This document shows, piece after piece, positions 38,042-39,016 of a DNA stretch of 64,000 bases. Origin of the DNA: Calditrichota bacterium. GTDB lineage: Bacteria > Zhuqueibacterota > Zhuqueibacteria > Zhuqueibacterales > Geothermadaptataceae. The position numbers and the translations under genes were made by a program. The notes under the pieces were generated by a model. It worked only from the letters and a program-made list of their open reading frames with translations. It did no database searches and was not told the DNA's origin. Positions within the stretch are counted from its first letter, which is position 1, and every line of letters starts with the position of its first letter. The DNA is taken from contig QQUE01000007.1 of NCBI GenBank assembly GCA_008501765.1, forward strand, positions 186,001-250,000, read 5' to 3'.

Positions 38042-38203
38042 ATGTCAAAAAAAGATACAATTATCATAGTTTTGATAGCCATCTCAATTGTTGTACTTCT
38101 GTTTTTTGGGTACAACGATTACAAACGGCAAAAAGGATTAAAGAATGACGCGGTGGGTGAAATCATTTATGAATCGAATAATGCTCGGTCAAGTTTGGGT
38201 TGA
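38042..38203 (+). CDS. Small single-pass membrane protein, 53 residues
   Basis: An ATG at 38042 follows AAGGG at 6 nt and opens a 53-codon frame. The peptide starts MSKKDT, then has one hydrophobic helix (about residues 7-22) and a charged tail ('YNDYKRQKGLKND'). Composition and ribosome site make it look real. It is flanked by the LacI gene (divergent) and the hairpin at 38259, which would end its transcript. The function is unknown. Confidence 0.55.
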   Translation: MSKKDTIIIVLIAISIVVLLFFGYNDYKRQKGLKNDAVGEIIYESNNARSSLG

Positions 38204-38249: not shown

Positions 38250-38621
38250 TCATAAAATGCAAAAAGCCTGATCTTTATTCGTAGGATCAGGCTTTTTGCG
38301 TGTGTTTTTTAACAGGCTTCGTTTCTTTTTTATTCGCAGCCGCGCTTCTTTCACCCGGCCGGGGATATTTGTGGGCTTCCGTGGCTTTCGCCGGGCAAAT
38401 TTTGATTGCAGGCTTGCTCTCAGCCGCAACCACGCCATTTTTCTATTTTTATGCTGTGACCGGCTCTCACTTGCCGTGACGATCAGGCCGGTTGGCTGAT
38501 GCAGCAAGCGTACGGCAGATTCGGTTTTGTTGCGATGCTGCCCACCTGGCCCCGATGCTTTATAGGTCGAAAGAACGGTGTCCTTCTCCAGGTTTTTTAA
38601 ATAATTTTCAAGTTCATTCAT
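38250..38621 (-). CDS. GGQ-domain release-factor-like ribosome rescue protein
   Basis: 123 residues from ATG 38621; an ATG at 38636 would add five, but it abuts the T-run of the terminator upstream. The catalytic loop is 'SGPGGQHRNKTESAVRLLHQ', the class I release-factor GGQ motif that hydrolyses peptidyl-tRNA. No codon-recognition domain is present. The basic tail ('RVKEARLRIKKKRSLLKNTR') resembles the ArfB/ICT1 tail that enters the empty mRNA channel of stalled ribosomes. The protein therefore probably rescues ribosomes on nonstop mRNA. Oddly, a strong terminator hairpin (38259-38299) lies inside the last codons, so many transcripts may lack a stop codon. Whether it is ArfB proper or a related RF-like family is open. 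Confidence 0.85.
   Translation of the reverse strand: MNELENYLKNLEKDTVLSTYKASGPGGQHRNKTESAVRLLHQPTGLIVTASESRSQHKNRKMAWLRLRASLQSKFARRKPRKPTNIPGRVKEARLRIKKKRSLLKNTRKKPDPTNKDQAFCIL
38259..38299. terminator. Intrinsic terminator inside the rescue-factor coding sequence
   Basis: A 15-bp perfect stem (38259-38273 with 38285-38299) and an 11-base loop. The core GCCTGATC/GATCAGGC is flanked by five As and five Ts, so it can work on both strands. On the plus strand it lies 55 nt after the small membrane protein. On the minus strand its U-run ends about four codons before the TGA of the GGQ gene. Confidence 0.85.
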
Positions 38622-38636
38622 TTCAGTTATTCTCAT

Positions 38637-38667
38637 AAAAAAAGCGGCTGTAAAAAAAACAACCGCT
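38637..38667 (-). terminator. Intrinsic terminator after trxA
   Basis: Read on the minus strand: AGCGGTTG (38667-38660) pairs with CAGCCGCT (38650-38643) with one G-U pair, and is followed by a run of Ts that touches the possible ATG at 38636. It lies 29 nt after the thioredoxin stop. It should limit read-through into the GGQ gene. Confidence 0.8.
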
Positions 38668-38695: not shown

Positions 38696-39016
38696 TTATG
38701 CAACAACACTGTCGAGACGACGCTGAATTTCGGTTTTCGGAACCGCACCAATAATCGTATCGACAACTTCGCCGTCTTTAAATATAAGCAAAGACGGGAT
38801 GCTGCGAATGCCATAAGTTCCTGCGACAGATCCATTGTTGTCCACGTTTAATTTTCCAATCTTGACGGAATCGGAATATTCAGTCGAAAGTTCTTCTATG
38901 ACCGGGCCTATCATTTTACAAGGGCCACACCATTCCGCCCAAAAATCAACCAAAACAGGTTTGTCAGATTTAATAACTTCCTGATCGAAATTGCTATCAT
39001 TGAATTCTAAAGCCAT
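38696..39016 (-). CDS. trxA: Thioredoxin
   Basis: 106 residues, normal thioredoxin length. The active site is 'WAEWCGPCKM' with the redox pair CGPC, and the conserved cis-proline is in 'RSIPSLLIF'. It is a cytoplasmic disulfide reductase that serves many enzymes with thioredoxin reductase. AAGGAG lies 8 nt before the ATG. It has its own terminator, so it is probably a single-gene unit or the end of one starting further upstream. Confidence 0.97.
   Translation of the reverse strand: MALEFNDSNFDQEVIKSDKPVLVDFWAEWCGPCKMIGPVIEELSTEYSDSVKIGKLNVDNNGSVAGTYGIRSIPSLLIFKDGEVVDTIIGAVPKTEIQRRLDSVVA

Follow-up and report, generated by a model that had tools for sequence, protein, structure and literature searches.

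Gene content of the locus and the in-frame hairpin

We analyzed the window, a 64,000-nucleotide stretch of contig QQUE01000007.1, at a minus-strand reading frame (38250-38636) that encodes a GPGGQ motif and crosses a perfect hairpin before its TGA stop codon. An earlier note on this DNA had claimed that a GGQ frame on the minus strand runs through a 15-bp hairpin at 38259-38299, and these coordinates proved exact. The likely start of the gene, hereafter the rescue gene, is ATG 38621 (MNELENYL) by comparison with the orthologues in G001, a species of the same genus, and in a third species, G002; an in-frame ATG at 38636 lies upstream, and residues of the rescue protein are numbered from the Met at 38621. 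The features of the locus are as follows.

38042..38203, plus strand: convergent gene for a 53-aa membrane protein, which can share the hairpin as its terminator (orthologue with 52% identity in the corresponding position of G001)
38250..38252, minus strand: TGA stop codon, 3' of the terminator (reading frame)
38254..38265, minus strand: U-run TTTTTGCATTTT, the predicted RNA 3' end, 5' of the stop (tail score 4.13)
38259..38299, minus strand: in-frame hairpin, 15 bp and symmetrical, predicted intrinsic terminator (fold and genome scan; conserved in G001)
38298..38360, minus strand: coding region for residues 88-108, the basic C-terminal helix that includes the counterparts of ArfB R118, L119, K122, K129 and R132 (AlphaFold, alignment, ArfB mutants in PMC3950681)
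38538..38546, minus strand: codons of the catalytic GGQ motif (GPGGQ invariant in 51 homologues)
38250..38621, minus strand: ArfB/C12orf65-like GGQ rescue-factor gene (RF-1 domain, 85 bits; start by the G001 and G002 orthologues)
38637..38667, minus strand: trxA terminator, 5' of the rescue gene (stem 38667-38643, U-run 38642-38637)
38696..39016, minus strand: trxA, thioredoxin, 5' of the rescue gene (TIGR01068, 134 bits, over the cut-off; syntenic in G001 and G002)

The hairpin has 15 pairs, an 11-nt loop and no mismatch, and its fold z-score was -5.73, with none of 200 shuffles folding equally well. The 3' end of the gene reads, on the minus strand, CGC-AAAAAGCCTGATC-CTACGAATAAA-GATCAGGCTTTTT-GC-ATTTTA-TGA, and its end codons are CTG TTA AAA AAC ACA CGC AAA AAG CCT GAT CCT ACG AAT AAA GAT CAG GCT TTT TGC ATT TTA TGA; the U-run (38265-38254) was thus found before the TGA (38252-38250), as had been claimed. 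No stop codon occurs in this frame upstream of or within the hairpin. The TransTerm-like tail score in the direction of the rescue gene (4.13) stands at the 48th percentile of the 63 stop-proximal terminators of the genome and is reached by 0.4% of random 15-mers. Because the exact palindrome was found only once in the genome, a genome-wide repeat was ruled out. The presence of a predicted terminator before the stop in this GGQ gene is confirmed.

The position of the hairpin was compared with a background sample of 1.21 Mb of the window genome containing 925 genes by a hexamer model, in which terminators were scanned as stems of at least 9 pairs with at least 4 G-C pairs and a T-rich tail. The scan returned 133 terminator-like hairpins. 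For 63 of them the start falls in the interval from -5 to +80 nt relative to a stop, most often 0-40 nt past it. Only 1 of 64 stop-proximal hairpins lies entirely within the final 40 nt before the stop, and it is the rescue-gene hairpin, a gene chosen post hoc (the earlier note had selected it for its in-frame terminator) and entered by hand into the 925-gene set since it falls below the threshold of the hexamer caller. The runner-up in the same scan ends 42 nt ahead of its stop. The neighbours of the rescue gene (38250-38636, minus strand) score over the hexamer threshold that it fails to reach; possible causes of the low score are its short and lysine-rich product, low expression or an atypical origin.

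Upstream, the short stretch that separates trxA from the rescue gene carries a hairpin in 3 of 3 species (window, 38637-38667; G001, locus L042, ~2953-2984; and locus L023), which is a U-tract terminator in the window and in G002 and a 14-bp stem without a U-tract in G001. A second terminator had been proposed to abut the start of the rescue gene at 38637-38667; the terminator is real, but it ends trxA and lies ~16 nt from the start ATG 38621. Because a hairpin precedes the rescue gene in three species, read-through or an unseen promoter would probably be needed, and expression of the gene is probably low.

Identity of the encoded protein

Pfam returned the RF-1 domain alone (85 bits) for the rescue protein, which scored under the model cut-offs of prfA, prfB, prfH and ArfB, reaching 64.3 bits against a cut-off of 100 bits for the class-1 ArfB model NF006718 and 78 bits against the 166.65 required by the PrfH model. 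The protein consists of the GGQ part alone, with no codon-recognition domain, and RtcB, the neighbour expected of PrfH, was absent among the neighbour genes seen at the locus; a PrfH identity was ruled out on these three grounds. In the AlphaFold model (mean pLDDT 87) an RF-like GGQ domain is followed by a C-terminal helix at residues 88-108, and only 5 residues lie between strands 36-41 and 47-50, so that the alpha-i helical insert is missing. This absence, together with the score, led us to reject membership of class-1 ArfB (YaeJ/ICT1). By sequence, the protein matches PDB entries for RF1/RF2, PrfH, ArfB and C12orf65 among others, with query residues 44-115 aligned to ArfB 63-134 at equal lengths and with the tail included, and Foldseek matched the GGQ domains of RF1/RF2, ArfB, PrfH, ICT1 and mtRF-R. 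An RF-like GGQ domain without alpha-i, joined to a positively charged C-terminal helix, defines the 'classical ArfB'/C12orf65 type (Burroughs and Aravind, PMC6514570), and because the alpha-i insert of class-1 ArfB is missing, the predicted architecture fits a 'classical ArfB'/C12orf65-like protein.

In E. coli ArfB, R118, L119, K122, K129, R132 and the linker residue R105 are required and T108 is less so (Kogure et al., PMC3950681). The positions R105, T108, R118, L119, K122, K129 and R132 correspond to R81, T84, R94, L95, K98, K105 and R108 of the rescue protein at a constant offset of 24; K98, R108 and R81 are invariant in 51 homologues, and R94, K105 and T84 are nearly so. The claim of a rescue-like GGQ protein thus holds, the protein being ArfB-type with all six required linker and tail residues matched. 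R108, the equivalent of ArfB R132, is encoded by the CGC codon at which the stem starts. Since the hairpin begins only at the codon of this last required residue, a transcript terminated in the U-run would encode every residue known to be required and ~12 more, in agreement with the earlier view that a stop-less transcript would still encode the basic tail. ArfB carrying 44 additional C-terminal residues was unharmed (PMC3950681).

Rescue systems in the genome, order and phylum

The window genome encodes both tmRNA (tag ADDYSYAMAA) and SmpB. The rescue gene occurs in 12 of the 15 genomes of the order and class-1 ArfB in none of them (0/15), while class-1 ArfB was found in 41 of the 67 genomes searched in the rest of the phylum. 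These counts suggest that the rescue protein may stand in for class-1 ArfB in the order, an apparent replacement. Bacterial members of the C12orf65-like family occur in Planctomycetota, Myxococcota, Cyanobacteriota, Desulfobacterota-type and other MAGs, and no experimental study of them was found in the literature searched.

Conservation of the hairpin within the genus

The closest orthologue (65% identity) is that of G001 (locus L042), and the order glycosyltransferase, trxA, rescue gene, convergent small gene, LacI-type regulator is common to both species. An alignment of homologues had been proposed as a check, and the hairpin still lies within the frame in this sister species, where the 3' end reads CGA AAA AAG CCT GAT CAG GAT TTA GAT GAT CAG GCT TTG TTC GTC. 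The arm codons are identical at 7 of 7 positions and the loop codons at 0 of 4, as against an identical-codon rate of 0.28 outside the arms and a third-position identity of 0.54 at matching residues, and one pair at the foot of the hairpin is switched on both sides, from C-G in the window to A-T in G001. The third species, G002, gave no 3' half, its contig ending inside the rescue gene.

The G001 stem gains outer pairs, reaching 17 bp with one mismatch, and its U-tract is broken, features that recall the mismatched stem of arfA and would suit a hairpin that, like the one in E. coli, is chiefly a target of RNase III-type cleavage, with termination secondary and the non-stop outcome unchanged. 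The tail is normal in the window, however, and that of G001 still ranks at the 29th percentile when set against real terminators, and we consider a principal role in cleavage improbable. No stop lies upstream of the hairpin in the G001 frame, which is open for ~35 more codons past it, into repeat-like intergenic sequence; the residues downstream of the hairpin are therefore not conserved. A repeat-like CCTGAGCTTGCCGAAAGGGGG element is found within this extension at ~3425-3450 of L042. Such open frames, which in the window continue to the TGA, would be expected if ribosomes trailing RNA polymerase blocked the hairpin, full-length messages with a stop were normal and the overlap had no effect, and translation-coupled antitermination is a known phenomenon. 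The in-frame terminators of brfA and arfA are functional, however, and the C-terminus past the hairpin shows no conservation, its G001 extension being repeat-like, and we regard an overlap without effect as very improbable.

Outside the genus, no in-frame terminator was found in ~80 related loci, in 12 class-level ArfB genes or in 30 phylum-wide ArfB genes (partly the same genes as the 12), that is, nothing comparable in about 100 further homologues overall. Most of these have no hairpin and stop about where the window hairpin starts, and some distant ones have a longer or divergent C-terminus. Because most outside relatives stop where the hairpin starts, the genus has lost the ancestral stop, and the in-frame terminator is, so far, genus-specific. 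A hairpin that always lies past the stop in homologues, which had been named as evidence contrary to non-stop control, was not the pattern seen. In the class-1 ArfB gene of another genome, G039 (locus L290), a very strong bidirectional terminator starts at the stop (TAAAAAAAGGCGGACGG...), one step from the arrangement in the window.

The convergent gene and the direction of termination

The 53-aa protein encoded opposite the rescue gene (window, 38042-38203, plus strand; L042, 3545-3670, minus strand) is conserved and unannotated, with one predicted membrane segment, a GY(N/Q)DYKRQK motif and no Pfam match over the cut-off. In the window, 54 nt separate the end of its gene from the hairpin. 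Tail scores of the window hairpin were 4.13 toward the rescue-gene stop and 3.95 in the opposite direction, and those of the G001 hairpin were 3.40 in the rescue-gene direction and 4.45 in the convergent-gene direction; the value of 3.40 stands at the 29th percentile of the 63 stop-proximal terminators of the window genome and is reached by 1.4% of random 15-mers. Because the tails are adequate in both directions, the hairpin can terminate both genes. The earlier note had allowed for a shared bidirectional terminator, and this fits the DNA, as each species has a conserved small gene pointing toward the hairpin from the other side.

The main rival explanation is accordingly that the hairpin persists because it terminates both members of a convergent pair, and that the rescue gene of this genus drifted into it after losing its ancestral stop, with tmRNA control not selected and some non-stop message possibly arising as a by-product. 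The conserved partner close by, the tails that are good both ways and in G001 better for the convergent gene, and the commonness of symmetrical A/T-flanked terminators in the window genome all favor it. It accounts less readily for arms conserved at every letter, while an ordinary convergent terminator nearby has kept its place and changed its arms between the window species and G001 (one case, the baseline for other terminators comprising few orthologous pairs and one informative convergent pair), for the loss of a near-universal family stop position exactly at the terminator, and for the fact that no other terminator in 1.21 Mb overlaps a gene end likewise. We therefore hold this explanation to be possible though doubtful. 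The two functions are compatible, and neither non-stop control nor bidirectional termination excludes the other.

Discussion

We lean, if only slightly, toward selected non-stop-mRNA control, in the style of ArfA and BrfA, of an ArfB-type enzyme. Non-stop control is favored because the in-frame terminator with a good U-run is the only one among 64 stop-proximal hairpins, because G001 keeps the arms exactly with a changed loop and no earlier stop, because the predicted non-stop product would be complete in its required tail residues, because the stop was lost where most outside relatives have it, because tmRNA and SmpB are present in the genome, because an order without class-1 ArfB carries the rescue gene in 12 of 15 genomes, and because brfA and arfA are precedents. 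It is weakened because the feature is seen in two species of one genus, because the G001 U-tract is poorer toward the rescue gene than in the opposite direction, because the conserved convergent gene provides another reason for the hairpin, because ~15 codons without a stop are not rare (~0.4 by a base-composition estimate) and because constraint on the encoded residues partly explains the identity of the arms. The interpretation offered in the earlier note is, overall, partly supported.

Under selected non-stop control, RNA polymerase would mostly terminate at the hairpin in the last codons, so that most rescue-gene messages would probably be without a stop codon while encoding all residues known to be important, and ribosomes would stall at the stop-less end. 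With tmRNA-SmpB active, the product would be tagged with ADDYSYAMAA and then degraded; with tmRNA overloaded, untagged product would be released, accumulate and assume rescue. The rescue protein may thus build up only when tmRNA falls behind. At first, this release could be due to residual enzyme that attacks the complexes in which it is itself being made. Unlike ArfA and BrfA, the rescue protein would need no RF2 to hydrolyse the peptidyl-tRNA complex that carries it. We infer termination in vivo, tagging and induction upon tmRNA failure by analogy with brfA and arfA.

In brfA (YqkK) of Bacillus subtilis, an intrinsic terminator lies in the coding region before the stop and control is proven (PMC6881298). 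The window gene resembles it in the terminator before the stop, in the complete protein predicted from a non-stop message and in the presence of tmRNA; BrfA differs in having no GGQ domain, an unrelated sequence, a dependence on RF2 and a control that is proven rather than inferred. In E. coli arfA, a stem-loop before the stop, cut by RNase III, yields the non-stop message (PMC3989581, PMC10107115). The stem-loop before the stop is shared, and the hydrophobic end AFCIL of the full-length window protein is a loose parallel (PMC3989581), but ArfA recruits RF2 and its message is cut by RNase III, and the full-length end in G001 is not hydrophobic. With C12orf65 (mtRF-R) the window protein has in common a GGQ domain without alpha-i and a basic C-terminal helix (PMC6514570), although the eukaryotic member works in mitochondria. 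With class-1 ArfB/YaeJ and mitochondrial ICT1 it shares the GGQ domain, the linker, the basic C-terminal helix and the equal spacing of the required residues; it differs from class-1 ArfB in lacking alpha-i, in scoring under the ArfB cut-off and in its in-frame terminator, present in 0 of 30 phylum ArfB genes.

To our knowledge, non-stop control of arfB is not known, and no report of such control of an ArfB/GGQ-type factor was found in the open-access literature. Reviews name ArfA and BrfA as the factors under non-stop control and report that arfT has neither an RNase III site nor a tmRNA-dependent change (PMC8874680). On the comparisons made here, we see an even chance that the window gene represents a further independent origin of non-stop control and the first in a peptidyl-tRNA-cutting enzyme, in an order that is without class-1 ArfB and mostly carries the gene.

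ArfA and BrfA, both RF2 helpers, wire backup rescue to tmRNA failure by leaving out the stop. If the rescue gene is controlled in the same way, non-stop logic would be a recurrent solution regardless of rescue chemistry, and the self-release of the enzyme would constitute a simple positive feedback. Such control would also give the bacterial C12orf65-like proteins, a widespread family, a role that can be tested.
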